A DNA stretch of 49,551 nucleotides, from assembly GCA_017557505.1 (NCBI GenBank), contig JAFYYP010000021.1, positions 1-49,551 of the forward strand, in the 5' to 3' direction. Source of the DNA: Bacillota bacterium. Its GTDB lineage: Bacteria > Bacillota > Clostridia > Peptostreptococcales > Anaerovoracaceae. Position 1 is the stretch's first letter, and each line of letters starts with the position of its first letter. Below the pieces are notes generated by a model. The model did no database searches. It was not told where the DNA came from and saw nothing but the letters and a program-made list of their open reading frames with translations. Of the stretch, positions 29,816 to 49,551 are shown in pieces. The position numbers and the translations under genes are program-made.

Positions 29816-29828
29816 AAGGAGGCAAGAG

Positions 29829-31457: not shown

Positions 31458-31472
31458 GATCAACGAACACAG

Positions 31473-31501
31473 TTGAAAAATGCGCATTAGTGTGCTAAAG
31501 T
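31473..31501 (+). promoter_or_regulatory. Promoter before the permease
   Basis: TTGAAA (31473-31478) and TAAAGT (31496-31501) are spaced by 17 bases, with TGC just before the -10 box (extended -10). It would start a roughly 45-base leader before the permease gene. Confidence 0.75.
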
Positions 31502-31551
31502 GTGATTGTAATATTATTCCTTTTCGTTCTTATTAAGAGAAAGGCTATATT

Positions 31552-32940: not shown

Positions 32941-32971
32941 GCGATAGGCTTACAACAGAAAAGGCTATAGA

Positions 32972-33006
32972 ATGCCCGGTCCGGTTCATCCGGGCCGGGC
33001 ATTTTT
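32972..33006 (+). terminator. Terminator after the permease
   Basis: A 13-bp stem (32972-32984 with 32990-33002, one G-T pair) with loop TTCAT and a T5 tail. Confidence 0.92.
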
Positions 33007-33030
33007 ACACATGCTAGACAGGAGGATTTT

Positions 33031-34671: not shown

Positions 34672-34674
34672 ACA

Positions 34675-35922
34675 ATGATCATCATCAAAGGAAGAGTCAT
34701 AGACGGCAACGGCGGAGCGCCGATCGAAAAAGGCGCCGTCGTCCTGGAAGACAATAAGATCAAGCTGGTATGCCGTGAAGCGGACTTGCCGGACTATCCG
34801 GACAGTCCGGATATCCAGGTGTTCGAAGTGGAAGACGGAAGCATCCTGCCCGGTCTCATCGACGCTCACGTCCACATGGGCTGGGGCTCCGCGAAGGCGA
34901 TCGACTGGATCGGCTCCACGCCCCAGATGCAGACATGTCTGGCGCTGCGCGACATGTCCCAACTGCGTGATTCCGGCTACACGGCATTCCGCGACCTCGG
35001 GAGCGACGTGGTCCTGATGCGTCCCGCGGCGGAAGCCGGTCTCATTTCGGTGCCCAGGATCTTTGCGGCGGGCCGCATACTGACGCAGATCGGAGGCCAC
35101 GGCGATCCGTATCACAAGATCACGGTCGAGGCGTCCAAGGCCATCTACAACGTGGCGTACATCGTGAACGGCGTGGATGAAGTGCGCGAAGCCTGCCGCC
35201 GCAACGCCCGCAACGGAGCGGATCTCATTAAGATCATGACGACGGGCGGCGTATTCTCCAACGGAGACAAAGCAGGGGAGATTTCCCACTTCAGCCGCGA
35301 CGAGATTCGTGCCGCTGTGGAAGAGGCAGAGAACATGGGTTCCTATGTCTCCAGCCACGCGCAGGCGAACCGCGGCATCCGTACGGCCCTGGAATGCGGT
35401 GTAAAGTCCATCGAACACGGTTTCTATCTGGACGATTACTGCATCGACATCATGGTAAAGAACGATTGCTGGTACGTGCCGACGCTTTCCATCATGCATA
35501 CTTCGAAGTTGTATTTCGAGAACCGGGAAGGCGTCCTGCCATATCTGAAGGAGAAAACACTGCGTTCGTACGAAGCGCATTACCAAGCTGTGGAAAAGGC
35601 CCGCAAAGCCGGCGTGAAGATCGGAATGGGCTGTGATTTCCTGGGCGACGCAGAATTTGGCTGCAGTTACGACAGAGCGACGATGGAATTCGAGCGCATG
35701 GCTGCTGCCGGGTTCACGCCGCTGGAGATCATCCGCATGGCGACGAAGATCAATTCGGAACTCCTGCTGATGGCGGACAGACTCGGCACGCTGGAAGAGG
35801 GCAAATTCGCGGACGTGATCCTGGTCAAAGGCGATATGTCCGCGTCGATCGACCCAATCACCGATGCAGGCAATGTGAAACTCGTCGTACAGGATGGAAA
35901 GATCGTAAAAAATATTATGTAA
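34675..35922 (+). CDS. Amidohydrolase 3 (Xaa-Pro dipeptidase/imidazolonepropionase-like)
   Basis: 415 residues of a different amidohydrolase branch. DAHVHMG (about residues 63-69) gives the first metal pair. NGADLIKIMTTGGV holds the Lys that is carboxylated in binuclear members such as prolidase-type dipeptidases. SSHAQ and SIEHGFYL supply the later His residues, and MGCDFLGDAEFG may hold the catalytic Asp. A dipeptide or N-acyl amino acid is a likely substrate class. It sits 12 bases before a serine dehydratase-like gene, so release of a hydroxy-amino acid is a sensible guess but unproven. Confidence 0.83.
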   Translation: MIIIKGRVIDGNGGAPIEKGAVVLEDNKIKLVCREADLPDYPDSPDIQVFEVEDGSILPGLIDAHVHMGWGSAKAIDWIGSTPQMQTCLALRDMSQLRDSGYTAFRDLGSDVVLMRPAAEAGLISVPRIFAAGRILTQIGGHGDPYHKITVEASKAIYNVAYIVNGVDEVREACRRNARNGADLIKIMTTGGVFSNGDKAGEISHFSRDEIRAAVEEAENMGSYVSSHAQANRGIRTALECGVKSIEHGFYLDDYCIDIMVKNDCWYVPTLSIMHTSKLYFENREGVLPYLKEKTLRSYEAHYQAVEKARKAGVKIGMGCDFLGDAEFGCSYDRATMEFERMAAAGFTPLEIIRMATKINSELLLMADRLGTLEEGKFADVILVKGDMSASIDPITDAGNVKLVVQDGKIVKNIM

Positions 35923-35934
35923 AGGGAGTCAGAA

Positions 35935-37518
35935 ATGATCAGTTTATATCCTGAATTTTACAACGACACTTTCGGGCCCATCATGCAGCCCGGATCATCC
36001 TCGCATATGGCGGCCCCGTGCCGCATGGGATACCTCTGCAACTCCCTGCTGGGCGAGCCTCTGTCTCACATCCGTGTCGAACTGGATACGGAAGGGTCGT
36101 TCACAGGCACGTTCGGTCTGATGAACGAAGACCTGGGCATGCTGAACGGTGCTTACGGCTGCCTTCCGGACGAAAAGGATTTCTTCGATATCAAATCCAG
36201 GCTGAAGGCGGAAAACATCGGCTATGAGTTTGATTTCTGCGAAATGAAGGAGAGCTCCCACATCAACGCGGTGAAGTTCATCCTGACGGGGAAGAGCGGA
36301 AAGAAAGCGAGCGTCGTCGCGAATTCCACGGGCGGCGGCATGGTGGAAACGGTTTGGGTCAACGGATACCGCTTCGCGGGAAAGGGCGATACCTGGGTCC
36401 TCTTCGTATATGACCCGGAGAGCGCTGCAGATCACGAAAAAATCCTGACTGATGTCCTGGCGTTCGCGAAGCCTCTGGAAGACGGTATCGCGAACGCGCA
36501 GAGCGGAAACGGCTGCGCGCACTGGTTCAGACTGGAACAGGCTCCGGCAAAGGTATTGCTCTCCGGATTTTCGTCCTGCGCGGTGATGAAGCCCGTGCTT
36601 CCCGTCCCGACGACCTTTGCCAAAAAGCCGCAGCTCTTCGACACCATGATGGAGTGGCGGCATCTCGCAAAGGAACAGGGTAAGAGCCTTGTGGAGGTCG
36701 CGATCGATTACGAGATAGCTGCGAGCGGCTGGACGGCGGAGGAAGTCGTGGCGTACATGCGCGACAGAGTACAGCCTGCCATGTACAGGCGTTCCCACGC
36801 ATCGTACGAGGAAGAGGGCCTTGAATGGCAGCATTCGCCTTTTGATCAGCGCCACGAGGCTGACTGGATGAAGTCCGAGCCGGACAATATGGTGACCGGT
36901 CCGATCTTTAAATCCATCAAGTATATGGAGGCGAACTTCCCCAATTTCCGAGGTGTCCTCAACGTGCCCGGCCCAATGGGCGGCGGAGGCGGTCTGATCT
37001 ACGGGACGCTGAGCGCCCTGCAGGACGAATACGGATACACGGACAGCGATCTTCTGAATGCTCTGTTCATCGCGGCAGGCGTGGGAGCGCTCTGCTATAC
37101 CCGCTCTGCCCCGACAGGTGAGGTCACGGGCTGCACGGGCGAGATGGGCTGCTGTTCCGCCATGGCTGCGGCAGCTGTAGCGTATCTGCGCGGCGGGACC
37201 GACGAACAGATCGAAAACGCCGCGACGTTTGCCCTGATGGCAGCTATCGGATGGCCCTGCGATCCGATCCCCGGCGGTCACGGCATGGCTTGTCACGTAC
37301 GCGGGCTCTATATGGCGAGTATGTCCATCGTCTGCGCGCAGTACGCACTGAACGGTATGGATCCCGTTCTCCCGTTCCATGAGGAACTGGACGTGGCCGA
37401 CCGTATCGGCCGCAGCCTTTCCGGCGACCTGCTCTGCACCTCCCGCGGCGGCCACTGCTGGGCACCCAGCGCACAGCAATGCATGAAAGCGTTTCGTGAG
37501 TGGCATGAACAGCAGTAG
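35935..37518 (+). CDS. Divergent iron-sulfur L-serine dehydratase-like protein
   Basis: 527 residues with fused beta-like (N-terminal) and alpha-like (C-terminal) parts. The beta signature reads SSSHMAAPCRMG instead of the usual SSSHT-x-GP-x-R. In the alpha part TGEVTGCTGEMGCCSAMAAA and GWPCDPIPGG are clear. Cys400, Cys442 and Cys453 have spacings of 42 and 11, the same as the cluster ligands described for the Legionella enzyme (343, 385, 396). The C-terminus WHEQQ lacks the terminal Cys of that enzyme. The reaction would be dehydration and deamination of L-serine, or of a related hydroxy- or amino-acid, to a keto acid plus ammonia. It is the last gene of the amidohydrolase operon. Confidence 0.75.
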   Translation: MISLYPEFYNDTFGPIMQPGSSSHMAAPCRMGYLCNSLLGEPLSHIRVELDTEGSFTGTFGLMNEDLGMLNGAYGCLPDEKDFFDIKSRLKAENIGYEFDFCEMKESSHINAVKFILTGKSGKKASVVANSTGGGMVETVWVNGYRFAGKGDTWVLFVYDPESAADHEKILTDVLAFAKPLEDGIANAQSGNGCAHWFRLEQAPAKVLLSGFSSCAVMKPVLPVPTTFAKKPQLFDTMMEWRHLAKEQGKSLVEVAIDYEIAASGWTAEEVVAYMRDRVQPAMYRRSHASYEEEGLEWQHSPFDQRHEADWMKSEPDNMVTGPIFKSIKYMEANFPNFRGVLNVPGPMGGGGGLIYGTLSALQDEYGYTDSDLLNALFIAAGVGALCYTRSAPTGEVTGCTGEMGCCSAMAAAAVAYLRGGTDEQIENAATFALMAAIGWPCDPIPGGHGMACHVRGLYMASMSIVCAQYALNGMDPVLPFHEELDVADRIGRSLSGDLLCTSRGGHCWAPSAQQCMKAFREWHEQQ

Positions 37519-37618
37519 CAACTCAGGCTCCCTCGGCGCGTTTTGCCCTTCTTTGAAGAATCTCTTAGCAGCAAAACAAAAAGATATACCGATATACAAG
37601 TATTAAAAAAATAAACCG

Positions 37619-37648
37619 TTACACAATTCACAAAAAAAGGCATATACT
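37619..37648 (+). promoter_or_regulatory. Probable ppdK promoter
   Basis: TTACAC (37619-37624) and TATACT (37643-37648) are spaced by 18 bases; TTCACA/TATGCT is an alternative pairing. The stretch 37570-37710 is strongly AT-rich against its surroundings. It also holds a GATATAC direct repeat (37583-37589, 37591-37597). I saw no clear terminator for the preceding gene here. Confidence 0.6.
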
Positions 37649-37708
37649 ATGCTGTGGTCATTACGATAAATAAGGGTAAACCCGTTAATACGAAAGGAGT
37701 AACTGTTT

Positions 37709-40339
37709 ATGAGCACAAAGTACGTGTACATGTTCTCGGAAGGCAACGCGAAGATGCGCAACCTCCTGGGCGGCAAGGGCGCGAACCTGGCTGAGATGAG
37801 CAACATCGGCCTGCCCGTACCCCAGGGCTTCACCATCACGACCGAAGCCTGCACCCGCTATTATGAGGATGGCAAGAAGATCGACGACGCGATCAAGGCC
37901 GAGATCATGGAATACATCGTCAAGATGGAAGAGGTCAACGGCAAGAAATTCGGCGACAAGGAGAATCCTCTGCTCGTATCCGTCCGCAGCGGCGCCAGAG
38001 CGTCCATGCCCGGCATGATGGACACCATCCTGAACCTGGGCCTGAACGAACAGGTCGTCCGCACCATCGCGGATAAGTCCGGCAACCCCAGATGGGCGTG
38101 GGACTGCTACAGAAGATTCATCCAGATGTTCTCCGACGTCGTCATGGAAGTCGGCAAGAAGTATTTCGAGGAACTCATCGACCAGATGAAGGCTTCTAAG
38201 GGCATCACCTATGACGTCGAACTGACCGCGGAAGACCTGGAAGTGCTTGCAAACCAGTTCAAGGCTGCATATAAGGACAAGATCGGCGCGGATTTCCCCG
38301 ACGATCCGAAGGAACAGCTGTTCGCGGCCATCGAAGCCGTATTCCGCAGCTGGGACAACCCCAGAGCCAACGTCTACAGAAGAGACAACGACATCCCCTA
38401 CAGCTGGGGCACCGCCGTCAACGTCATGCCGATGGTCTTCGGCAACATGGGCGACGATTCCGGCACGGGCGTTGCCTTCACGCGTGACCCGGCCACGGGC
38501 GAAAAGAAGCTGATGGGCGAATTCCTCGTGAACGCCCAGGGCGAAGACGTCGTCGCAGGCGTCCGTACCCCGATGCCCATCGCGCAGATGGCAGAGAAGT
38601 TCCCCGAAGCTTACGACGAATTCGTCAAGGTCTGCGGCATCCTGGAAGATCACTACAGAGACATGCAGGACATGGAGTTCACGGTCGAGAACCGCAAGCT
38701 GTACATGCTGCAGTGCAGAAACGGCAAGAGAACGGCTCAGGCCGCTCTGAAGATCGCGTGCGACCTTGTGGACGAAGGTATGATCGACGAGAAGCAGGCC
38801 GTTGCCATGATCGACCCGCGCAACCTCGACACGCTGCTGCACCCGACGTTCGACGCCGCTGCCCTGAAGGCTGCTACGCCGCTGGGCAAGGGCCTCGGCG
38901 CATCCCCGGGCGCTGCCTGCGGACAGGTCGTCTTTACCGCTGACGATGCCAAGAAGTGGGCGGAAGCGGGCAAGAAGGTCATCCTCATCAGACTCGAGAC
39001 TTCCCCCGAAGACATCGAAGGCATGAAGGCCGCGCAGGGCATCCTGACCGTCCGCGGCGGCATGACCTCCCACGCTGCCGTCGTTGCCAGAGGCATGGGC
39101 GAATGCTGCGTTTCCGGCTGCGGCGACATCAAGATGGACGAAGAGAACAAGAAGTTCGAACTCGCAGGCAAGGTCTTCCACGAAGGAGACAAGATCTCCA
39201 TCGACGGCACGACCGGCAACATCTATGAAGGCGTCATCCCGACCGTCGACGCGCAGATCGCCGGCGAATTCGGCCGCATCATGGGCTGGGCCGACAAGTA
39301 CAGGAGACTGAAGGTCAGAACGAACGCCGATACGCCGAAGGACGCCGCCAAGGCTGTCGAACTCGGCGCGCAGGGCATCGGCCTTACCAGAACCGAGCAC
39401 ATGTTCTTCGACGAGTCCAGAATTGCCGCGTTCCGCGAAATGATCTGCTCCGACACTCTCGAAGAGAGAGTTGCCGCGCTGGCCAAGATCGAGCCGATGC
39501 AGCAGGAAGACTTCGAAGGCATCTATGAGGCGATGCAGGGCTATCCTGTCACCATCAGATTCCTGGATCCTCCTCTCCACGAATTCGTTCCCAAGGAAGA
39601 GGCGGATATCGAGGAACTGGCCAAGGCGCAGGGCAAGTCCGTCGAAGACATCAAGAACATCATCTCCGGCCTGCACGAATTCAACCCGATGATGGGTCAC
39701 AGAGGCTGCAGACTTGCGGTCACGTATCCTGAGATCGCGGAGATGCAGACCAGAGCGGTCATCAAGGCTGCGCTGGCCGTTCAGGCGAGACATCCCGAAT
39801 GGACCATGGTTCCCGAGATCATGATCCCGCTCACCGGCGAGGTCAAGGAACTCAAGTACGTCAAGGATATCGTCGTCAAGGTCGCGGACGAGATCATCAA
39901 GGCCGCCGGCAGCAACATGAAGTACCTGGTCGGCACCATGATCGAGATCCCCAGAGCGGCTCTGACCGCCGACGAGATCGCGACCGAAGCCGAGTTCTTC
40001 TCCTTCAGCACGAACGACCTGACGCAGATGACGTTCGGCTTCTCCAGAGACGACGCGGGCAAGTTCCTCGGCGCCTACTACGACAAGAAGATCTACGAGA
40101 ACGATCCGTTCGCGAAGGTCGACCAGGTCGGCGTCGGCAAGCTGGTCGCCATGGCCTGCAAGCTGGGCCGCCAGACCAGACCGGATCTGCACCTGGGCGT
40201 CTGCGGCGAGCACGGCGGTGACCCGTCCAGCGTGGAATTCTTCCACAAGGTCGGCCTCGACTACGTCTCCTGCAGCCCGTTCCGCGTACCCATCGCGAGA
40301 CTGGCGGCAGCGCAGGCAGCCATCAAGGACGAACAGTAA
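37709..40339 (+). CDS. ppdK: Pyruvate, phosphate dikinase
   Basis: 876 residues, full length. It interconverts pyruvate, ATP and Pi with PEP, AMP and PPi. In order: ATP-grasp N-terminal domain (GGKGANLAEMSNIGLPVPQG), the swivelling phospho-His domain with RGGMTSHAAVVARGMG (His455, the same number as in the well-studied clostridial enzyme), and the C-terminal TIM barrel with GVCGEHGGDPSS (Cys near 832). A strong AAAGGAG precedes ATG 37709. In anaerobes PPDK serves PPi-linked glycolysis or gluconeogenesis. Here it could also recycle pyruvate from the serine dehydratase-like enzyme upstream. Confidence 0.98.
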   Translation: MSTKYVYMFSEGNAKMRNLLGGKGANLAEMSNIGLPVPQGFTITTEACTRYYEDGKKIDDAIKAEIMEYIVKMEEVNGKKFGDKENPLLVSVRSGARASMPGMMDTILNLGLNEQVVRTIADKSGNPRWAWDCYRRFIQMFSDVVMEVGKKYFEELIDQMKASKGITYDVELTAEDLEVLANQFKAAYKDKIGADFPDDPKEQLFAAIEAVFRSWDNPRANVYRRDNDIPYSWGTAVNVMPMVFGNMGDDSGTGVAFTRDPATGEKKLMGEFLVNAQGEDVVAGVRTPMPIAQMAEKFPEAYDEFVKVCGILEDHYRDMQDMEFTVENRKLYMLQCRNGKRTAQAALKIACDLVDEGMIDEKQAVAMIDPRNLDTLLHPTFDAAALKAATPLGKGLGASPGAACGQVVFTADDAKKWAEAGKKVILIRLETSPEDIEGMKAAQGILTVRGGMTSHAAVVARGMGECCVSGCGDIKMDEENKKFELAGKVFHEGDKISIDGTTGNIYEGVIPTVDAQIAGEFGRIMGWADKYRRLKVRTNADTPKDAAKAVELGAQGIGLTRTEHMFFDESRIAAFREMICSDTLEERVAALAKIEPMQQEDFEGIYEAMQGYPVTIRFLDPPLHEFVPKEEADIEELAKAQGKSVEDIKNIISGLHEFNPMMGHRGCRLAVTYPEIAEMQTRAVIKAALAVQARHPEWTMVPEIMIPLTGEVKELKYVKDIVVKVADEIIKAAGSNMKYLVGTMIEIPRAALTADEIATEAEFFSFSTNDLTQMTFGFSRDDAGKFLGAYYDKKIYENDPFAKVDQVGVGKLVAMACKLGRQTRPDLHLGVCGEHGGDPSSVEFFHKVGLDYVSCSPFRVPIARLAAAQAAIKDEQ

Positions 40340-40422: not shown

Positions 40423-42237
40423 ATGGCAGGACCGAAATCAAGAGAAGAACAGCTGCGGCTGTGGGAAGAACAGAGCAGGGTCAGACAAAGAGACCGGCTC
40501 GCGTATTTCCGCAAGGAATTCGGCGTGGAACCGGATCTCCCCACGGAGAAAAAGGCGAAAGAGATCTATTCAAAGATCCAGAAGGATGAACCGTACTTCA
40601 AGACGGCGATGGCAGGCCCGTCGGCCCGCATGCAGAGCCTTGTTTCCTCGGACGCGTTCCGGGAAGCTCTCATCGGAGCGGAAGGGGCAGGGAAGGAGGA
40701 GCAGCGTTTCGCGGATAAGGCGAGCGACGCGCTCACCTGGGCCATCGAAGCGTTCGGCGACGCCTACGGCGCGTATTCCAATACCCAGGCGGTAGAAGGC
40801 GTCCGGCAGAGCCATCAGCTCAAGAGACTGCTGAAGATGAAGGGTCCTGGAGGTGCGACGTTCTATCAGGCCATGAAAGCAGCTGCGGCCAAGAACGGCA
40901 CGCTGGATACGTTCTACGACGACTTGGCCTACGTCAACAGCGCATTTAAGATGGGGATCGATCTGGAAAAGATGGACCCCGATTTCAAGAAAGAGGCGCA
41001 TCCGGAGCATACGTCGACCTGGGCTGATTACAAACGCGAACATCTGGACAACATCCCTCACGATCCGGAAAAGAAAAAGGACTGTCTGGCGAAGGTCCTC
41101 GTCGGCGCGTTCGAAGCCGGGCTCCCCGACGCTCAGAAGGATGCATTCAGTCCCGAAAAAGCGGAAAAGTTCGCGCAGCAGATCAAAAAACGTCCTGTTT
41201 TCAAAAAGTTTTGTGAAGATCCGGTGCGCGTCAAAGAACTGCTGAAGGAAGACCCTAAAGATCCGGACAAGCACTTCAATGCGGTCATGGGTCTGTACAG
41301 CCCGTTCGCGAAGGTCCCCAAGGAAAAATGCAATGAGGCGCTCCGGAAGATCAAGGGGATGCTGCCCCATATGGACGGTCCCAAAGGACACGGCAAGGAG
41401 TGGAAGGCTCTGGTGGAGAGCGTCAGCACCATCGATCTGAACGACCCGAAGAACAGCGGTCCGAAAAAGCTCCAGGAGATCTTCGACAAGACCTGCGGCT
41501 ACGCCAAGGGCAGAAAGAGCCTGCGCGGAAAGCAGTCCGATCAGAATCTCGTCGACCAGTCGTTCGACGTCCTGGCAGAGTTGGGAAAATGCGGTCCGTA
41601 CGCAAAGATGGCTGCTGAAACGGTGATCGACCGCACGAACGAGGTCCGTCTGGGTCACGACAGGAATTATGATACGATCAGTCTGAGCGATTTCGGCGCT
41701 TCCAAAGCCGTCAGGCATTCGAATCACAAGAAGACCTATCGTGCGCTGGACGTTCTCCCCGAAGAGGCGAGATCCCTTCCCGAGATCCCGAAAAAGAAGA
41801 GAGGCGTGGCGTCGCCGCTGGCAGAGTACACGCAGGAACTGGCGCCTCTTGCTTCCGATAATGTGCTGAACGAGGTGGAAGCCGCTCAGGCGGTCGCTCT
41901 GGCGGTCGCGCTCAGCAAAGCGCCTGTCTACTATTATTCGGGAGACGCAAACAAAGAATTGTCTAAGGGGATGAAAAAGTACGGAAGAACGGTCATCGAC
42001 GGTACCGCTCTGCTGGAAGGCGTCATGAAACTACAGATGCAGGATCCCGCTGTTAAGCAACTGGCGGAGAAATATAAGGATCCGGAAGCCAGAAAGGCGC
42101 TGTTTGCCGGCGGGCGTCCGGAACAGGCGCTCGGAAAGCCCGGTTCCGCATTCGACGTGTCCAAGCTGGACGTTCAGAAGATCACACAGGAATACGAAGC
42201 GGCAAAGAACCCGCTGCAGCAGCAGGCCGGGCTGTAG
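40423..42237 (+). CDS. Unrecognised 604-residue soluble protein
   Basis: I do not recognise this protein. It has no signal peptide or membrane segment, is rich in Lys, Glu, Asp and Ala, and looks mostly helical, so it should be cytoplasmic. AGGAGG lies 9 bases before ATG 40423. Recurrent short segments of the type KKRPVFKKFCEDPVRVKEL and DPKDPDKHFNAVMGLY suggest repeated helical modules. Scattered Cys residues form no metal motif. Its own terminator-bounded left side and a TATAAT just after its stop suggest it is a one-gene unit, or the first gene before the phosphatase. It could be a structural or signalling partner of the next genes, but nothing proves this. Confidence 0.75.
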   Translation: MAGPKSREEQLRLWEEQSRVRQRDRLAYFRKEFGVEPDLPTEKKAKEIYSKIQKDEPYFKTAMAGPSARMQSLVSSDAFREALIGAEGAGKEEQRFADKASDALTWAIEAFGDAYGAYSNTQAVEGVRQSHQLKRLLKMKGPGGATFYQAMKAAAAKNGTLDTFYDDLAYVNSAFKMGIDLEKMDPDFKKEAHPEHTSTWADYKREHLDNIPHDPEKKKDCLAKVLVGAFEAGLPDAQKDAFSPEKAEKFAQQIKKRPVFKKFCEDPVRVKELLKEDPKDPDKHFNAVMGLYSPFAKVPKEKCNEALRKIKGMLPHMDGPKGHGKEWKALVESVSTIDLNDPKNSGPKKLQEIFDKTCGYAKGRKSLRGKQSDQNLVDQSFDVLAELGKCGPYAKMAAETVIDRTNEVRLGHDRNYDTISLSDFGASKAVRHSNHKKTYRALDVLPEEARSLPEIPKKKRGVASPLAEYTQELAPLASDNVLNEVEAAQAVALAVALSKAPVYYYSGDANKELSKGMKKYGRTVIDGTALLEGVMKLQMQDPAVKQLAEKYKDPEARKALFAGGRPEQALGKPGSAFDVSKLDVQKITQEYEAAKNPLQQQAGL

Positions 42238-42264: not shown

Positions 42265-44421
42265 ATGCGGAAGAACCTATCTCTCGGAAAGAAAATACTG
42301 TACGCCATGCTCGCGATCGTCAGCATCATGCTGCTGCTTGCTGTGCTGTTCTTTATCTTTACCATGAACAACCTTTCGAAGCTGCAGGCGGAGACCAACG
42401 AGGAACTGAGCGAGACGACAGGGCAGATGTCCTCGGAATACATGTCGCAGGAAGCGTCCCGTCTGCTGCAGGATATGGCTGTCGAAAAGGCGATGATCGC
42501 GGACGAGGTCTTTTCCGAATTTGAAAACGCAGTCTGCGAAGTGGCCTACGTGGCGGAGCAGATCTACAACAATCCGCAGGATTACGGTCCCCGCTCCGTG
42601 CCTCTTCCGGATGCGTCGAAGGACGGCGAACTCACCATGCAGGTCCTGTATTCCGCGAAGACGGATCCGGATGACCCCGCCATCAAAAAAGAGCTCGCCC
42701 TGATCGGAAACGTCCAGGACACGCTGATGGCGATCAACGCGAATCAGGAGATCATGGTCTCTGTCTATGTGGCGACAGAATCCGGTTTTATGGTACAGGC
42801 GGACTACATCCCCGCGAAGAAGTACGACGAGAACGGCGAACTCATGCCGCTCGAAGCGAAGGAAAGACCCTGGTACCGCGGCGCGTCTATCCTGAAGCGC
42901 CCGTATTTCACGCCGGTCACAAAGGACGCCCACACGCCGCGTCCCACCGTCATGTGCGGCGTTCCCGTCTTCAGAGACGGAGAACTTGTCGCGGTCGCCG
43001 GCGCGGGCATGTACCTCGACAACATGGAATCGTTCGTGCAGAGCATCGACGTCGGTTCGGGCGGGTTCGCCGCCATTATGAACAGAGACGGTCAGATCCT
43101 GTTCTCCACAGCGGCGGAAGGGAGCCTTGCCGCCGTGACGGGCGGTCCGGATATCCGCAGAAGCCAGGACGCCGCGCTGGCCCAGGTGGCCACGAACGCT
43201 TCGATCGGAATGAAGGGCGTCAACCTCATCAACGTCGACGGCGTTCCCAGCTATATCGCTTACGCGCCGATGAAGACCGTAGGCTGGTCTCTGTTCGTCG
43301 TCCTGCCGCAGGAAGGCGTCGAGGCACCGACGAAGCAGATGCTCGAGAGCCTCGGATCCATGATGGATCAGTCCATGCAGAAGAGTAACGAACAGGTGCG
43401 GAACGCCACGTGGGTCCTGATCGGCCTGTTCGGCGTCGCCGTTGCGATGGCTGTCTGGATCGCGGTCCGGCTTTCGCAGAATATCGTGCGTCCGATCCAC
43501 GTCCTGACGGAAAAGGTGAGCGCGATCGAAGGCGATACGCTGGATTTCACATGGGATCTCGAGACAGGCGACGAGACGCAGACGCTCGCCGAATCGTTCG
43601 GATCCATGACCCGCCGCATGAACGACTATATCGAGAATATCCGGACGATCACGGCGGAAAAGGAGCGCGTCGGGGCGGAGCTCTCGCTCGCGCAGCGCAT
43701 CCAGGAATCCATGCTGCCGAACGTCTTCCCGCCGTTCCCCGACAGACATGAATTCGATATCTACGCCTCCATGGATCCCGCGAAGGAGGTCGGAGGCGAT
43801 TTCTACGACTATTTCTTCATCGACGACGATCACCTGGGTCTCGTCATGGCGGACGTCTCCGGCAAGGGGATCGGCGCCGCGCTGTTCATGACGATCTGCA
43901 TGATCACGCTCAAGAACTTCGCGACGCAGAACCTGTCTCCCGCCGAAGTGCTGCGCAAGACGAACGAGATGATCTGCGCCAACAACTCGGCGGACATGTT
44001 CGTCACCGTCTGGATCGGCGTACTGGAGATCTCCACCGGCAAACTGACCGCTTCGAACGCGGGTCACGAATACCCGGTCGTGATGCTGCCCGGCAATGCT
44101 TACGAGATCGTGAAGGATAAGCACGGCTTCGTCGTGGGCGGCCTCGAGGATGAGGAATACGAAGACTACGAGCTGCAGCTGCAGCCCGGTTCGAAGCTGT
44201 TCCTGTACACGGACGGCCTGCCCGAGGCGAAGGGTCCGGGAGGCGTCACGAACATGTTCGGCCTGGAGCGCCTGCTCGGCGCGCTGAACGCGGATCCTGG
44301 CGCGACCCCGCAGCAGACTCTTTCGAATATGAACGACGCTGTGGCACGCTTCGTGCAGGACGAAGAACAGTTCGACGACCTGACCATGCTCTGCCTGGAA
44401 TACAAGGGTGCCGGATCCTGA
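42265..44421 (+). CDS. Cache-HAMP-SpoIIE membrane phosphatase
   Basis: 718 residues. Membrane segment 11-33, then an outside region of about 350 residues resembling a double Cache sensor (KERPWYRGASILKRPYFTPV, GVPVFRDGELVAVAGAGMYL). The second membrane segment is about 381-402, followed by HAMP (to about 455) and a PP2C/SpoIIE phosphatase domain. Metal-binding Asp residues lie in KEVGGDFYDYF (about 507) and MADVSGKGIGAALFM (about 528), and near the end in QFDDLTMLCL. Such proteins dephosphorylate anti-sigma-factor antagonists in response to an outside ligand. No partner anti-sigma pair is encoded in this window. The kinase gene follows 18 bases later. Confidence 0.9.
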   Translation: MRKNLSLGKKILYAMLAIVSIMLLLAVLFFIFTMNNLSKLQAETNEELSETTGQMSSEYMSQEASRLLQDMAVEKAMIADEVFSEFENAVCEVAYVAEQIYNNPQDYGPRSVPLPDASKDGELTMQVLYSAKTDPDDPAIKKELALIGNVQDTLMAINANQEIMVSVYVATESGFMVQADYIPAKKYDENGELMPLEAKERPWYRGASILKRPYFTPVTKDAHTPRPTVMCGVPVFRDGELVAVAGAGMYLDNMESFVQSIDVGSGGFAAIMNRDGQILFSTAAEGSLAAVTGGPDIRRSQDAALAQVATNASIGMKGVNLINVDGVPSYIAYAPMKTVGWSLFVVLPQEGVEAPTKQMLESLGSMMDQSMQKSNEQVRNATWVLIGLFGVAVAMAVWIAVRLSQNIVRPIHVLTEKVSAIEGDTLDFTWDLETGDETQTLAESFGSMTRRMNDYIENIRTITAEKERVGAELSLAQRIQESMLPNVFPPFPDRHEFDIYASMDPAKEVGGDFYDYFFIDDDHLGLVMADVSGKGIGAALFMTICMITLKNFATQNLSPAEVLRKTNEMICANNSADMFVTVWIGVLEISTGKLTASNAGHEYPVVMLPGNAYEIVKDKHGFVVGGLEDEEYEDYELQLQPGSKLFLYTDGLPEAKGPGGVTNMFGLERLLGALNADPGATPQQTLSNMNDAVARFVQDEEQFDDLTMLCLEYKGAGS

Positions 44422-44439: not shown

Positions 44440-45711
44440 ATGGATCCTATCTTACAGCCGACAATTTTACTGGAGACCGCTCTCGTCCTGATGATGCTGG
44501 GACTGATCTTCGCCGTGCTCGTCGACCCCTATATGGACAGCCGGCGCCGCAAGGTCATGATCATCATCGTAGGGCTCGTTTTCCTGCTGCTGTTCCAGGA
44601 CCATCTGGAATACCAGCTGGAGACGGACGGCACTATGGCGTACCGCCGCATGCTGGCGGGCGTGTTGGGTTACTGCATCCGTCCCACCATCCTGGCCATG
44701 TTCTTCTACATCGTCAGCAACCGGGAGAGCCATAAGAAGGTCTGGGCGCTCATCGCGGTCAACGCCGCCGTGCACCTGACGGCGCTGTTCTCCGGCATCT
44801 GCTTCAGGATCACGCCGGACAACACGTTCGTGCGCGGACCGCTGGGCTATACCTGCCACGTCATCAGCGCATTGCTGCTGATGCAGCTGCTGTTCGTCAC
44901 GGTGCTCGAATGCAAGGACGAGCGGAAGAAAGACCTGCTGATCCCCGCATTCAACACCGCCATGATCATCGCGGCTGTTGCGGCGGACGGCACCTCGAGC
45001 GGCATGGTGGTCTCTTACCTGACGGGCGCCGTCGTGATCAGCGTGCTGTTTTATTACATCTGGCTGCATCTGCAGTTCGTGCGGCAGTACGAGAACGTCA
45101 TGAAGGAGGAGCAGCGCATCCGCATCATGGTGTCGCAGATCCAGCCGCATTTCCTGTTCAACACGCTTTCGACCATCCAGTCCCTGTGCCTCATCGACCC
45201 GAAGAAGGCGTCGGAGACGGTCGAAAAGTTCGGCACGTACCTGCGCCAGAACCTCGATTCGCTCAACCGAGAGGACATGATCCTCTTCGAGACGGAGCTG
45301 GAGCACACGAAGGTCTACGCCGAAATCGAGATGCTGCGCTTCCCGAACATCCGCGTGGAATACGACATCGAAGACACGCATTTCGGCGTGCCGGCGCTGT
45401 CGCTGCAGCCTCTGGTCGAGAATGCGATACGGCATGGCGTGCGCGTGCGCCGCAACGGCCTCGTGACCGTGACCACGCGCGAATACCCCGCGTATCATGA
45501 GATCCGCGTAACGGACAACGGCAAGGGCTTCAACGTGGCGGAAGCCATGGAGGCCGACAAGAGCCACATCGGCCTGCGCAACGTCAAGGACCGCATCGAG
45601 ACGCTGTGCGGCGGTACATTCCTCATCGACAGCAAACTGGGAGAGGGGACGGAGATCACGATACGCATCCCCCACAGGAAAGACCAGAGCGGAAAGGACG
45701 CCGTAGAATGA
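44440..45711 (+). CDS. LytS-type sensor histidine kinase
   Basis: 423 residues. Six hydrophobic segments fill residues 1 to about 205 with almost no outside domain, so sensing may occur in the membrane. The phospho-acceptor lies in QIQPHFLFNTLSTIQ (His237). The ATPase domain has N box LVENAIRHGV, G1 box DNGKGFN and SHIGLRNVKDRIE. Its partner is the next gene, joined by an ATGA overlap (45708-45711). The phosphatase upstream may belong to the same pathway. Confidence 0.93.
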   Translation: MDPILQPTILLETALVLMMLGLIFAVLVDPYMDSRRRKVMIIIVGLVFLLLFQDHLEYQLETDGTMAYRRMLAGVLGYCIRPTILAMFFYIVSNRESHKKVWALIAVNAAVHLTALFSGICFRITPDNTFVRGPLGYTCHVISALLLMQLLFVTVLECKDERKKDLLIPAFNTAMIIAAVAADGTSSGMVVSYLTGAVVISVLFYYIWLHLQFVRQYENVMKEEQRIRIMVSQIQPHFLFNTLSTIQSLCLIDPKKASETVEKFGTYLRQNLDSLNREDMILFETELEHTKVYAEIEMLRFPNIRVEYDIEDTHFGVPALSLQPLVENAIRHGVRVRRNGLVTVTTREYPAYHEIRVTDNGKGFNVAEAMEADKSHIGLRNVKDRIETLCGGTFLIDSKLGEGTEITIRIPHRKDQSGKDAVE

Positions 45712-46526
45712 ACATCATCTGTGTAGACGACGAAGACCTGGTGCTGCGGCTCACAGCGTCCATGTGCCGGGACATCGCCGGAGAAGACAGTTCCGTGGAG
45801 GAGTTCCTGTTCGCGCAGGATGCCCTGGACTGGCTGGACGCCGGCAACAGCGCGGACATCGCGCTGCTCGACATCGATATGCCCGACATGAACGGCCTCG
45901 TGCTGGCAGCGAAGGTCAAGGAGAAGAGCCCGGATACGGCCATCATCTTCCTGACCGGCTATTCCCAGTTCGCGGTGGAAGCATTCGCGCTCCGCGCGTC
46001 GGGTTATCTGCTGAAGCCCGTCAACAAGGATAAACTCGCGGAAGAGATCCGCTACGCGACGTCATCGCAGCCGGCGAAGACAGAGGAGGAGACGCCGCAC
46101 ATCGCTGCCGTGACGTTCGGCAACTTCGATCTGCTGGTCGACGGCAAACCGGTATCGTTCTCGCGCGCCAAGTCCAAGGAACTGCTGGCCTATCTCGTAG
46201 ACCGGCAGGGCAGCGGCGTGACCCGCGCAGAGGCCTTCTCGGCCCTGTGGGAAGACGGCTTCTACGACCGCTCCATGCAGAAGCAGCTGGACGTCATCCT
46301 GCGCAGCCTGCGCTCCACGCTGGAAGAAGCGGGGGTCGGGGAGATCCTGGAGGTGCAGCGGGGCTCCGTGCGCATCAGGCCCGAGCTCATCTCCTGCGAC
46401 CTGTACCGTTTTCTGGCAGGCGACGCCGACGCGGTGAACACCTACCGCGGCGAATACATGAGCGCCTACGCCTGGGCGGAACTGACCGAAGCGTATATCG
46501 AACGGCGCATCCAAAGTAATTACTGA
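45708..46526 (+). CDS. Response regulator with SARP-like output domain
   Basis: 272 residues from ATG 45708. The receiver domain (1-118) has the acidic pair DDED (7-10), the phospho-acceptor Asp55 in LLDIDMPDMNG, and YLLKPVNK with the conserved Lys. The output (about 125-225) starts FGNFDLLVDGKPVSFSRAKS, then KELLAYLVDR and QKQLDVILRSLRSTL. This is an OmpR-like winged helix of the SARP/AfsR type, followed by a short, incomplete bacterial transcription activator (BTAD) tail. It should bind direct repeats with one-turn spacing. A matching repeat pair lies 65 bases downstream of its stop. A strong terminator ends the unit. Confidence 0.9.
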   Translation: MNIICVDDEDLVLRLTASMCRDIAGEDSSVEEFLFAQDALDWLDAGNSADIALLDIDMPDMNGLVLAAKVKEKSPDTAIIFLTGYSQFAVEAFALRASGYLLKPVNKDKLAEEIRYATSSQPAKTEEETPHIAAVTFGNFDLLVDGKPVSFSRAKSKELLAYLVDRQGSGVTRAEAFSALWEDGFYDRSMQKQLDVILRSLRSTLEEAGVGEILEVQRGSVRIRPELISCDLYRFLAGDADAVNTYRGEYMSAYAWAELTEAYIERRIQSNY

Positions 46527-46536
46527 CCGATCACAG

Positions 46537-46574
46537 GATCACAGGGGCGACCCTGTGATCTTTTTTTATTTTTT
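46537..46574 (+). terminator. Terminator after the response regulator
   Basis: The 10-bp stem GATCACAGGG / CCCTGTGATC (46537-46546 with 46551-46560) has loop GCGA and a long tail T7-A-T8. An extra GATCACAG precedes it (46529-46536). Confidence 0.93.
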
Positions 46575-46590
46575 GAAAACTTTTTATTTT

Positions 46591-46626
46591 TCTGTTGGAC
46601 ATCTGTTGGACATGGACCAATACAAT
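46591..46626 (+). promoter_or_regulatory. SARP-type promoter: tandem 11-bp repeats and -10 box
   Basis: TCTGTTGGACA occurs twice without gap (46591-46601 and 46602-46612). TACAAT (46621-46626) follows after 8 bases. There is no good -35 box. For SARP activators, repeats with an 11-base period ending 8 bp before the -10 box are the known arrangement. The transcript would have a leader of about 90 bases to the pilin ATG at 46725. The direct sequence pattern is certain; use by the upstream regulator is inferred. Confidence 0.7.
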
Positions 46627-46724
46627 GCATAGTGAGTTAGTGTGCCGGACTGTATCTCCGGGACGGCGCGAATACTCCGGTCATCATTTTCATTTACATA
46701 TTTTAAAGAAAGGAAAGAGAAAAA

Positions 46725-47000
46725 ATGTTTGATTCTGCTGTCAATCCTGTAATCAGCCTGCTGGAAAACATGCTCAGCCCCCTGATTCTTCTGGTCAGCG
46801 CAGTCGGCGCCATTTACTGCGTCATCCTCGGCGCAAAGTTCGCCAAGGCGGAAGAGCCCCAGGACAGAGAAAAGGCAAAGCAAGCTCTGAAGAACGCCAT
46901 CATCGGCTTTCTTCTGATCTTCATCCTGCTGGTCGTTCTGAAGGGTCTCACGCCCCAGATGATCAAGTGGGTCAATAACAATTACAAGGGAACCATCTAA
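46725..47000 (+). CDS. Small two-segment membrane protein, VirB2/TrbC pilin-like
   Basis: 91 residues with AAAGGAAAG before ATG. Two hydrophobic segments (about 17-40, LSPLILLVSAVGAIYCVILG; and 59-73, NAIIGFLLIFILLVVLKG) flank a short charged loop KFAKAEEPQDREKAKQALK. This layout and the LGAKFAKAE-x-DREKAKQ loop resemble VirB2/TrbC-type pilins and the pilin-like transfer proteins of Firmicutes. No cleavable signal is obvious, and no conjugation or type IV secretion gene is in the window. It could be a lone pilin, a small membrane pore, or a holin-like protein. It is the first gene behind the SARP-type promoter. Confidence 0.7.
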   Translation: MFDSAVNPVISLLENMLSPLILLVSAVGAIYCVILGAKFAKAEEPQDREKAKQALKNAIIGFLLIFILLVVLKGLTPQMIKWVNNNYKGTI

Positions 47001-47107: not shown

Positions 47108-49551
47108 ATGAAAAAACAAAGCATTGCAAAGAGAATACTGACCGGTCTTCTGGCCCTGGGCATGACGGTCTCCGCAACGCTGAGCGCCAGCGCGGATACC
47201 ATAACCATAGACCAGAACGGTTTTACGAACCCTTCGATCACGAAGGGCACGGTCTATTACTGGCACAAAGGAGCGCCTCCCGCAACGCTGGACGGCACGT
47301 CTTACCCTGTGATCATGGTCTGGGATGACAAATATTATCTCGGTACGGACAACACGTTCTACAGCGAGATCGTCGGGACGAACAAGACGAATCACGCAGA
47401 AGATCTGGTAAGTCCGAAAATCAGAGATATCGACTCTCCGATGGACGTGGGCTGGGAGCTCGAAACGAATAGTGTACCATCCGGCGTATATCACAAAAAC
47501 CGTCTTTATTCAAGCCGTTCCGTTTCGGAACTGCCCTTCGATTACAGCGTGCTGAAGAACACCGGCACCGCCGTCTCCTTTGGTGCGGCGGGATTGCCGC
47601 GTTTTGTCGCTGTGGAAGACCAGTCAACGCTCACGATCAATGGCGAAACACAGCATCTCACTTACGGCAATCAGCTTTACAACAACAAATTGAATGTAAT
47701 GCTGAATGGCGATACGCAGGCATCTTACGCCATCTGGTTCCCGAATCCGACCACGGGCAACACGATGGAAAACCAGAAATACTGGCTGACATCCACGCAC
47801 CGCATCTATTCCTATTACGATGAAGTCGACAGAACGTTCGGTACGAAGGCAAAATACGTCAACAGTCTGGACTGGTTTCTGGATGTCAAAAGAGCCACGC
47901 AGTCGAACTTTACAAGCAAATCGTACACCTATACGCCGGAGCACAACGGCCTGAACAGCCGCGGCTATGAAGCCCGTCCGCCGAAAGTCGACCTCGGGCA
48001 CCGGACCTGGATTGTCTCCCAGATCGAAGGTACGCAGAAGTATCACATCTTCGGGATCCCCGGCGGAGACGCCCATCTCCAGAGCTTCTACGCCAGCGAC
48101 GGCCGGGATAAATTGATCACTTACGTCAAGAACATAGACAAGGCCGGCGGGATTGTCGGCCTGCTGCATACGGGCAGCCAGCTGCTGACTGCCGGCAACG
48201 GGGGCGGTCCGGTCGTTTACAGCTGGCAGCGGGGAAAGAGCACGTTGGAACTGCTCTGGACGATCATCACGGAGGATTATTCTCCCTGGAAAAAGGACGA
48301 CCGCTACGAGGACAGGAAGCCTTTCGAGGATGCGCAAGCCGATTTCGATCTGTATTGGGGCGAACCTGCCACCATCAGCTTCTGCCAGGTGGATTTCACG
48401 GTGCAGAAAGGCCAGGTGCAGACGTTCGACGGCCCCATCGCCGTGGGTCACGACGTGATCATCACGGTGGAGGACGGCGGCGTGCTGTCCTGCAGCGACT
48501 GGATCCTCAACAACGGCACCATCGTCGTAAAACCCGGCGGCACGCTGCTGCTGCAGACCTATGAGACGGCGAACGAACAGACCCGCTACGGCACGATCGC
48601 TTCGCTGCACGAGGCGGCGGGCGACGACGGCGGCCGCATCTACTGCGACGGGACCATCATCGTCATGCCCGACTGCAAGTTGTGTTGCAGCGGCAAGTAC
48701 GGCCTGACGCTGGGAGAGGGCGCCCAGGTGGTCAACTACGGCGCCATCATTTCCGAGAACCTGTCCGCTGCCCAGAGCTACACTATCGAAAACCGGGGCG
48801 ACAACAGCTATGTGTTCGCGGGGTGGGGTCTGAAGGACTGCGGATCTTCGCTGCTGACGGAGCGGATCACGAGCACGAGCTTTACCGAAAAAGGCGCCAG
48901 GGAAAAATCTGCTACCGTAAACCTTCCTTCGAATGCCATCTACGGTAAAGGATCTACGCGCTTTAACGCGAATACCGCTTCCACGGTCACGCACAAGCAT
49001 GAAACGCTCAGCGGCTATGTGACGGACAACGTCACGGATCTGCCGCCCCTGCCCAACGATGCGTCGGGAGGGAAGAAAGCGCAGTATTTCACGATCGCGG
49101 ACGGCTTTCCGTACACCGTATATTATCCGGACACAGGCGAGGTCATTTACAGCGAGAGAGACAGAGACGTCACGTTCGCGATCTACGAAGATCCTGAAAA
49201 AGAATCGTACCTGTATTATGAGACCCAGAACTCGTACGGCGACTGGCGCGGCGAAAAATATACGCTCGACCCGAACCGGTATGCGGAAGTTTACAAATCG
49301 TACTTCAATCCGGAGCATTCGACGCATCCGCAGAAGCTGGTGTTCAAGGGATCTCTGAAAAACTGGGACGGTACCGATCAGAACTATTTTGCTCCTCCGG
49401 AAACGGATGAGGTGCCTCTCGTAGACGTCATCCTGTCGGAAAAGCACGGGATCTACTATGACAGCGCTCCGAAGACGTGGAGCAATATGGTCCAGATCCC
49501 CTCCAAAAGCCGCGTCCTCATCTATGAAGAAGCGGAATCCTGCTTCCTGGG
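47108..49551 (+). CDS. Large secreted protein, incomplete at the right edge
   Basis: Open from ATG 47108 to the window end, at least 814 residues with no stop. The first 29 residues (MKKQSIAKRILTGLLALGMT then an SASA cut site) form a clear Sec signal peptide. The mature part is rich in Thr, Tyr, Gly and Asn. Residues about 435-570 alternate short hydrophobic strands and Gly/Asn turns (GHDVIITVEDGGVLSCSDWI, LNNGTIVVKPGGTLLLQTYE), as in a right-handed beta-helix. No catalytic family is recognised. GNGGGPVV (near 375) faintly recalls the GDSGGP of trypsin-like proteases but lacks the Ser. A cell-wall anchor would be beyond the edge. It is probably transcribed with the pilin-like gene, across the palindromic spacer. 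Confidence 0.85.
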   Translation, partial: MKKQSIAKRILTGLLALGMTVSATLSASADTITIDQNGFTNPSITKGTVYYWHKGAPPATLDGTSYPVIMVWDDKYYLGTDNTFYSEIVGTNKTNHAEDLVSPKIRDIDSPMDVGWELETNSVPSGVYHKNRLYSSRSVSELPFDYSVLKNTGTAVSFGAAGLPRFVAVEDQSTLTINGETQHLTYGNQLYNNKLNVMLNGDTQASYAIWFPNPTTGNTMENQKYWLTSTHRIYSYYDEVDRTFGTKAKYVNSLDWFLDVKRATQSNFTSKSYTYTPEHNGLNSRGYEARPPKVDLGHRTWIVSQIEGTQKYHIFGIPGGDAHLQSFYASDGRDKLITYVKNIDKAGGIVGLLHTGSQLLTAGNGGGPVVYSWQRGKSTLELLWTIITEDYSPWKKDDRYEDRKPFEDAQADFDLYWGEPATISFCQVDFTVQKGQVQTFDGPIAVGHDVIITVEDGGVLSCSDWILNNGTIVVKPGGTLLLQTYETANEQTRYGTIASLHEAAGDDGGRIYCDGTIIVMPDCKLCCSGKYGLTLGEGAQVVNYGAIISENLSAAQSYTIENRGDNSYVFAGWGLKDCGSSLLTERITSTSFTEKGAREKSATVNLPSNAIYGKGSTRFNANTASTVTHKHETLSGYVTDNVTDLPPLPNDASGGKKAQYFTIADGFPYTVYYPDTGEVIYSERDRDVTFAIYEDPEKESYLYYETQNSYGDWRGEKYTLDPNRYAEVYKSYFNPEHSTHPQKLVFKGSLKNWDGTDQNYFAPPETDEVPLVDVILSEKHGIYYDSAPKTWSNMVQIPSKSRVLIYEEAESCFL

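Follow-up and report, generated by a model that had tools for sequence, protein, structure and literature searches.

A putative tandem 11-bp operator beside the gene for a receiver-headed SARP-like regulator in a member of the Anaerovoracaceae, and the genes that it may govern

Which protein reads a promoter in which two identical 11-bp units stand back to back just upstream of a -10 hexamer, and which genes does that protein control? The question is raised by a stretch of 49,551 nucleotides (the window: assembly GCA_017557505.1, contig JAFYYP010000021.1, positions 1 to 49,551, forward strand) from a Bacillota bacterium of the Anaerovoracaceae, in which a response-regulator gene is followed by such a site. 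Judging from sequence comparison, we think it very probable that positions 46591-46626 are an activator-dependent promoter at which the regulator encoded at 45708-46526 would occupy the paired repeats, and that the sites of this kind define one regulon. The parts in question are as follows.

45708..46526, + strand: response regulator of 272 amino acids, with receiver, SARP-like winged helix and short tail (Pfam, profile search)
46591..46601, + strand: operator, upstream 11-bp repeat TCTGTTGGACA (sequence reading, shuffles, genome-wide pattern search)
46602..46612, + strand: operator, downstream 11-bp repeat TCTGTTGGACA (sequence reading, shuffles, genome-wide pattern search)
46613..46620, + strand: 8-bp spacer TGGACCAA ahead of the -10 (sequence reading, spacing counts)
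46621..46626, + strand: predicted -10 hexamer TACAAT (sequence reading, spacing counts)

Positions 46587-46629 read TTTTTCTGTTGGACATCTGTTGGACATGGACCAATACAATGCA; the two 11-bp units are identical and adjacent and lie 8 bp from TACAAT, exactly as a first-pass annotation of this DNA had described them. The window holds no further copy of TCTGTTGGACA at up to one mismatch, and when it is shuffled 0.47 single copies are expected and at least two copies turn up in 6 of 100 shuffles, tandem order not being required by the test. The annotation's remark that there is no -35 box stands for normal spacing, in that a consensus scan of 46450-46800 turned up no sigma-70 promoter whose spacer measures 16-18 bp, but it needs qualifying at 19 bp, a spacer at which the upstream repeat offers TGGACA, a match in 5 of 6 letters to the -35 consensus TTGACA. 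A MerR- or LytTR-type site was also considered and rejected: the site has a period of 11 and no inverted repeat.

Is the site a singular curiosity or one of a set? In the 2.2 Mb genome from which the window comes, the 22-bp tandem pattern occurs at 5 places at up to 3 mismatches and its reversed control at 0; with N8-TANNNT added, the same 5 places are found at 0 mismatches, none at 1-3, and the reversed pattern again gives 0. All 5 sites precede an open reading frame (ORF), and their -10 hexamers (TACAAT, TAAACT, TATAAT, TATGAT, TATAGT) lie exactly 8 bp away; a sixth place, whose best -10 lies 9 bp away, comes from a looser search of the genus made without the -10 demand. That search found 33 places in 5 of 8 genomes and none with the reversed control. 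We read one by one the 34 distinct sites made up of these 33 and one in G033 (genomes, contigs and loci carry G, C and L numbers): at spacer 8, 24 agree with TATAAT in at least 4 of 6 letters, and for 5 others the strongest -10 (5-6 of 6) stands one base farther on, at spacer 9. A search of 61 genomes, with the -10 and at most 2 mismatches, gave 26 places in 7 genomes, among them one each in G033 and G047, which lie outside the genus. The first-pass annotation had proposed to look for the tandem repeats in the genome and its relatives and to ask whether they are kept where both genes are kept; they recur with the 11-bp period and the 8-bp distance intact, and G002 and G004 hold both genes and the repeats. 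As an observation apart, the operator-like site of G033 (L015:1038-1071), a member of another genus, stands before a gene that by eye looks like a type IV prepilin gene.

The same arrangement is conserved next to the genes of related regulators. Searching named genomes with an alignment of the regulator gave, as the best 80 of at least 582 candidates encoding a relative, loci whose regulators are 51-69% identical and which by title come mostly from metagenome-assembled genomes of Clostridia and relatives, many from ruminants; 77 had at least 200 bases behind the regulator gene and yielded a non-redundant set of 73 loci, of 3-7 kb each. Behind the regulator gene, 24 of the 73 show a repeat period of 11 together with a -10 at spacer 8, while the control periods 9, 10, 12, 13 and 14 give 0, 2, 0, 0 and 0 at the same spacer, and period 11 gives 3/73 in reversed DNA and 2/73 in the reverse complement. 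When period is gridded against spacer, the period stands out sharply, whereas spacers 7-9 score much alike (22-24 loci), since the repeat frame is free to slide; it is the anchored counts, in the 34 sites above and in what follows, that single out spacer 8. TTGGACA-N4-TTGGACA (at most 3 mismatches) lies just behind the regulator gene in 25 of the 73 loci, with 28 matches, 24 of which have a -10 of at least 4/6 at spacer 8; 30 permuted-unit controls gave 0-4 loci (mean 0.8). Counted anywhere in the locus, the site with a -10 at 8 is present in 47/73, against a maximum of 3 for the 30 permuted units. A chance repeat was thus ruled out, by the genome-wide pattern counts against the reversed control and by the permuted units.

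Regulator and site also keep company at a larger scale. A survey of 297 genomes of the order located mismatch-free sites (GTTGGACATYTGTTGGACA-N8-TANNNT) in three, G000, G002 and G317, and these three are also the ones with a regulator output-domain match at E<=1e-50, a cut chosen once the jump from 9e-60 to 1e-37 had been seen; 11 more genomes have output domains 42-48% identical (E<=1e-30) and no mismatch-free site. The window's own genome has a single match to the output domain at E<=0.001. Together with the 47 of 73 loci, this agreement argues for the earlier suggestion that the site looks like the target of the neighbouring regulator.

If one protein reads both repeats, do operator letters and protein change together? 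In several loci they do: both copies share their altered letters, namely TTTATTGGACA twice in L157 and L167, TTTGTTATACA twice in L159 and TTGGATGGATA twice in L166, and the letters vary with the putative recognition helix of the regulator. We tabulated 25 loci, having left out the 5 without GG in the unit from 30 listed (those, of 74 with the window included, in which some 11-bp repeat and a -10 follow the regulator gene). Tyr197 is present in 10 of the 25, and the fourth letter of the downstream copy is non-G in all 10; of the 15 loci with another residue at 197, 2 have a non-G letter there (L169, L143). Asn195 with His199 is found, among the 30 listed loci, only in the two TTATACA loci, L152 and L159. 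Farther out, 3 of 11 distant regulators (31-42% identical) have a clear 11-bp repeat in like register behind the gene, with GTTAC in L050, GCAACGGT in L051 and TTGAC in L053, and the type IV secretion system (T4SS) pilin gene of G007 has TGTACCC/TGCACCC repeats (7/11 letters) with TATAAT at 8 bp.

What kind of protein, then, is the regulator? In a set of 79 (the window's own, 9 from whole genomes and 69 of the 73 loci) the receiver, Response_reg, is matched in all 79 and Trans_reg_C in 68; D8, D55 and K103 are invariant, and D7 nearly so, which agrees with an N-terminal receiver that carries a phospho-acceptor Asp, as in OmpR/PhoB response regulators. The best match of the output-domain profile to a solved structure is EmbR (1.1e-4), which has a full BTAD and no receiver; SaeR (4.9e-4) and AfsR (0.004) follow. 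Trans_reg_C over cut-off with EmbR in first place is what a winged helix of the SARP kind gives, a moderately specific sign with SaeR so close, and it bears out the earlier statement that the gene just upstream joins a receiver to a SARP-like output. The EmbR alignment extends beyond the winged helix into the start (CDl.rF) of the following domain, and a tail of about 50-55 residues (CDYYRF...GEYM..YSWAE) is conserved there. The accompanying description "winged helix plus BTAD" had to be given up: only ~55 residues follow the winged helix, and the BTAD family, which we take to be PF03704, was found in none of the 79 regulators by Pfam at E<=0.01. Because BTAD is undetected and the EmbR match covers only the start of the next domain, we do not file the protein as a SARP; by its sequence profile it is a receiver-headed, shortened, SARP-like protein.

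The likeness to SARPs lies in site and fold alike. The rule published for SARPs is that the direct repeats measure 11 or 22 bp and the 3' one stands 8 bp from the -10 (PMC10936776), and the window site has direct repeats of 11 bp at just that distance. With AfsR and the small SARPs of Streptomyces (PMC10936776, PMC10972967) the system shares 11-bp direct repeats over the -35 region, a 3' repeat 8 bp from the -10, an OmpR-type winged helix and a presumed head-to-tail pair; AfsR is described as a side-by-side dimer under sigma region 4, with recognition-helix contacts by T88 and R92, and its corresponding domain behind the winged helix spans residues 120-270 (PMC10936776), against the ~55 residues here. 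The differences are as plain: those proteins carry NOD/TPR domains behind, whereas the window regulator has a receiver in front, a short tail and no detected BTAD; the operator letters are TTGGACA here and CGTT(T/C)ATCGNN in SARPs, with a core that by our own reading lies ~2-3 bp nearer the -10; and the targets seen here, unlike those of the Streptomyces proteins, are not antibiotic clusters. The best-matching structure, EmbR of Mycobacterium (2FEZ), has an extra FHA domain (PMC10936776). Among the literature matches listed, mostly from non-subscription journals, there was no report of SARP-type response regulators or of this operator in Clostridia.

The alternative that survives best is that this is an ordinary OmpR/PhoB-type operator, the SARP likeness being a general trait of the winged-helix superfamily; it leaves the pairing of regulator and operator undisputed, and we hold it to be unlikely while giving it real weight. 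PhoB has the same order of domains, receiver before winged helix; Pfam assigns Trans_reg_C, and the score of SaeR is close to that of EmbR. The EmbR match, however, runs past the winged helix, and the conserved tail is one that classical OmpR/PhoB proteins, PhoB included, are not known to have; the repeats of PhoB lie about 10 bp from the -10. PhoB and other OmpR/PhoB regulators nevertheless resemble the present case in their sites too, PhoB being described as binding a pair of 11-bp direct repeats (PMC3978041) whose position overlaps the -35 (PMC3348028). Thus "textbook SARP operator layout", as the first-pass annotation put it, is right about the 11-bp period and the 8-bp distance, the latter being the SARP rule (PMC10936776), and too narrow as a diagnosis, given that PhoB also uses 11-bp repeats.

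Could the operator instead belong to some other transcription factor, encoded elsewhere, with the neighbouring regulator a bystander? We consider this improbable, although G001 and G005, which carry sites and in which a recognisable regulator was not found, speak in its favour. It would have to account for the coincidence of close regulator and mismatch-free sites in the same 3 of 297 genomes, for the co-variation of helix and operator letters, and for the position of the sites, since 33 of the 62 with a -10 at 8 adjoin the regulator gene (26 after it and 7 just before, with 29 elsewhere, in loci that are centred on that gene). The targets in G001 and G005, moreover, are mostly decayed. Three genes, those for the regulator, VirB4 and the first-type pilin, occur jointly in G000, G002 and G004, with distant versions in G007, and none of the three was found in G001, G003, G005 or G006; a distant second pilin is present in G005 and G002. 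An intact ORF lies behind 19 of 22 sites in G000, G002 and G004 (of 23, the window's own being excluded) and behind 1 of 9 in G001 and G005 (of 10, the C12 place being excluded), where "intact" means at least 300 amino acids or the 91-residue pilin, a rule chosen after seeing the lengths, so that the Fisher value of 1.7e-4 is descriptive; some of the 9 sites have no good -10 and are perhaps there by chance (e.g. the G005 C17 site, L097). By tblastn with intact relatives, L112 shows a frameshift and a stop, L041 holds a copy without its start and a part of its middle, and one homolog is intact (L043, 24-29% identical); at the other G001 and G005 sites only the distant pilin was reported, matches of less than 8% of the query not being listed. 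The region is split across contigs in the drafts G000 and G004, and therefore an assembly gap is possible in G001 and G005; the decayed targets speak for true loss of the regulator. Targets that are mostly decayed where regulator and VirB4 are missing turn this main counter-example towards a functional unit.

Our reading, in which the regulator at 45708-46526 owns the sites, has further points against it. A good -10 at spacer 8 or 9 is lacking in 5 of the 34 sites; no site with a -10 at 8 was found in 26 of the 73 loci, with 3-7 kb searched in each; and none lies ahead of the regulator's own operon in the window (before 40423). For the site in G033 a search for a regulator at E<=1e-20 found none, and those in G005 and G286 are imperfect and lie in genomes that likewise gave no regulator, here at E<=1e-30. 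G047 contributes a single match with 2 mismatches, and the reversed controls gave one match each in the 61-genome search (G050) and the 297-genome search (G083). As for co-variation, the Fisher value for residue 197 against the fourth letter, 2e-5, is not corrected for relatedness; L169 breaks the rule, as does L143 through a slipped repeat frame, and L181, which falls under the score cut of the table, would break it too. Among the distant regulators the repeat is weaker, and judged by eye, in L048 and L064, lies at a different distance in L063, and was not clearly found behind the gene in 5 of 11.

Least credible, and in our view highly improbable, is that TTGGACA is a -35-like element duplicated by chance or drift and used by the main or an extracytoplasmic function sigma factor with no activator. 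The likeness of the upstream TGGACA to TTGACA (5/6) speaks for it, but a plain sigma promoter was rejected: it would need a 19-bp spacer, the downstream copy at 8 bp from the -10 is unreadable as a -35, and the letters change jointly in both copies.

Around the promoter, the window encodes the following.

40423..42237, + strand: 604-amino-acid protein with no Pfam match (Pfam scan)
42265..44421, + strand: membrane protein with Cache and SpoIIE-type phosphatase domains and a HAMP match under cut-off (Pfam scan)
44440..45711, + strand: histidine kinase, Pfam His_kinase domain, presumably LytS-like (Pfam scan)
46535..46562, + strand: terminator-like hairpin downstream of the regulator gene (hairpin search; shuffles expect 0.3)
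46725..47000, + strand: 91-amino-acid T4SS pilin-like protein, first gene downstream of the operator (Pfam PF18895 and NCBIfam NF045849, both over cut-off)
47108..49549, + strand: large protein with a start that by eye resembles a signal peptide, second gene of the operon, open at the contig end (ORF reading)

The hairpin lies between regulator gene and operator, and therefore the operator site probably begins a new transcription unit. The histidine kinase is the probable partner of the regulator, by gene overlap and order. The operator precedes the G004 ortholog of the 604-residue protein, whereas the copy in the window is without it. Farther away, at 25633-40339, the window holds metabolic neighbours: two sulfatase-domain proteins, three amidohydrolases, an amino acid permease, a serine dehydratase-type protein and a pyruvate phosphate dikinase-type protein.

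How would such a promoter work? Some signal would reach the kinase, and perhaps also its phosphatase-type neighbour, and the kinase encoded before the regulator would phosphorylate it. A pair of regulators would sit head-to-tail on the two 11-bp repeats, on one face of the DNA, in the spot otherwise used by sigma region 4 to read a -35, and would recruit RNA polymerase to the -10 eight bp downstream, through contacts that we picture by analogy with AfsR. The same operator elsewhere would join to one regulon a type IV secretion operon, beginning with the 91-residue pilin, and scattered large proteins. We favour activation because the pair of sites replaces the -35, an activator layout; repression would be a less probable reading of the sequence.

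What is the operon for? In G002 (contig C30) the site is followed by the pilin, secreted-looking proteins of 864 and 327 amino acids, a membrane-type protein of 684 amino acids without a Pfam match, a VirB4-type ATPase of 1344 amino acids, a 1692-residue protein and a VirD4-type protein truncated at the contig end, so that pilin, VirB4 and VirD4-type coupling protein are present in order in one operon. In the window's genome VirB4- and VirD4-type genes are on contig C21, the set with the pilin being split over contigs C2 and C21. The nearest relatives are conjugation genes of integrative and conjugative elements, of the Mbov_0395/0397 type and with CD1110/CD1115 VirB4/VirD4 (NCBIfam): the pilin is over the cut-off for NF045849, and VirB4 and the VirD4 fragment are related to the CD1110/CD1115 type, below cut-off. 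Unlike these, the present operon includes large secreted-looking proteins and shares its operator with scattered genes, and no PF03432 relaxase was found in the 87%-complete genome, a search confined to that relaxase family. Two T4SS-like gene runs in G034 (L115, L116) each have their own regulator just before the pilin; one has by eye a weak 11-bp repeat of other letters (L064), and the other has no clear one. No report of a comparable secretion system was found among the literature matches listed, mostly from non-subscription journals.

The other sites lead to large proteins, nine of which were scanned against Pfam: one matched Big_2, one was kinase-like just under cut-off, and the rest gave nothing over cut-off. 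Seven members of the kinase-like family, of 605 to 761 amino acids, one cut by a contig end, have in common G-N-x-D-R and IDND motifs and a catalytic loop resembling that of PI3/PI4 kinases or Fam20; at E<=0.01, 5 of 7 match PI3_PI4_kinase and 5 of 7 Fam20C, and the profile places FAM20A and FAM20C first among solved structures, ahead of phosphatidylinositol 4-kinase 2-alpha.

L014:11190-13472, L123:6593-8788, L119:8853-11120, L122:2615-4873, L121:8191-10005, L108:11130-13331 and L043:10017-12170: kinase-like regulon proteins
L014:3101-9961, L121:1105-7980 and L039:11905-18999: very large conserved proteins behind operators, of 2287, 2292 and at least 2365 amino acids

At one G002 locus (L108:7056-15407) a single site is followed by five proteins of the regulon kind, a 105-residue protein and a second-type pilin-like protein; its G005 counterpart (L107) has kept the site, though with no -10, and lacks the five.

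The regulon proteins resemble one another at their ends. Within the last 20 residues, GP followed by Q, A, V, K, I or L occurs in 11 of 20 regulon proteins and in 4 of 196 other ORFs of the same loci (passed by a third-position GC filter), a contrast whose Fisher value of 2e-10 is descriptive, the motif having been defined after inspection of the tails; the 20 are regulon proteins of at least 150 amino acids, two of them remnants, and include paralogs that are not independent. Plain GP in the last 20 residues occurs in the same proportion of regulon proteins (11/20) and in 9 of 196 controls, and one of the 4 motif-bearing controls (L108:10590-11093) lies within a regulon operon. Shared operator, shared tail and joint loss together suggest that the regulon proteins may be secreted cargo. 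In the larger picture, which we put forward tentatively and stop a little short of favouring, the operator would mark a protein-delivery system of gut Clostridia, in which a receiver-headed, small SARP-like regulator governs a Gram-positive type IV secretion machine and its scattered substrates, these bearing a C-terminal K/E-rich translocation tail of the GPQ type and including the family whose catalytic loop is like that of PI3/PI4 kinases or Fam20.

What would this mean for the organisms? SARPs are mainly known as activators of antibiotic clusters in actinomycetes, and here, in many Clostridia of gut and rumen, a stripped-down SARP-like form under a receiver goes with an operator that can be read, whose natural changes, together with those of the recognition helix, provide a testable recognition code. 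The operator is also a handle on genes that are nearly free of annotation, grouping a type IV secretion operon with large cargo-like proteins; if the delivery reading is true, candidate substrates could be listed by sequence alone, from the letters of the operator, the tail and their loss in step with the machine. The kinase-like substrates, if that is what they are, would suit action in other cells, be they rumen protozoa, host cells or other microbes, and the cargo, if confirmed, would be a route by which uncultured gut Clostridia act on their neighbours.
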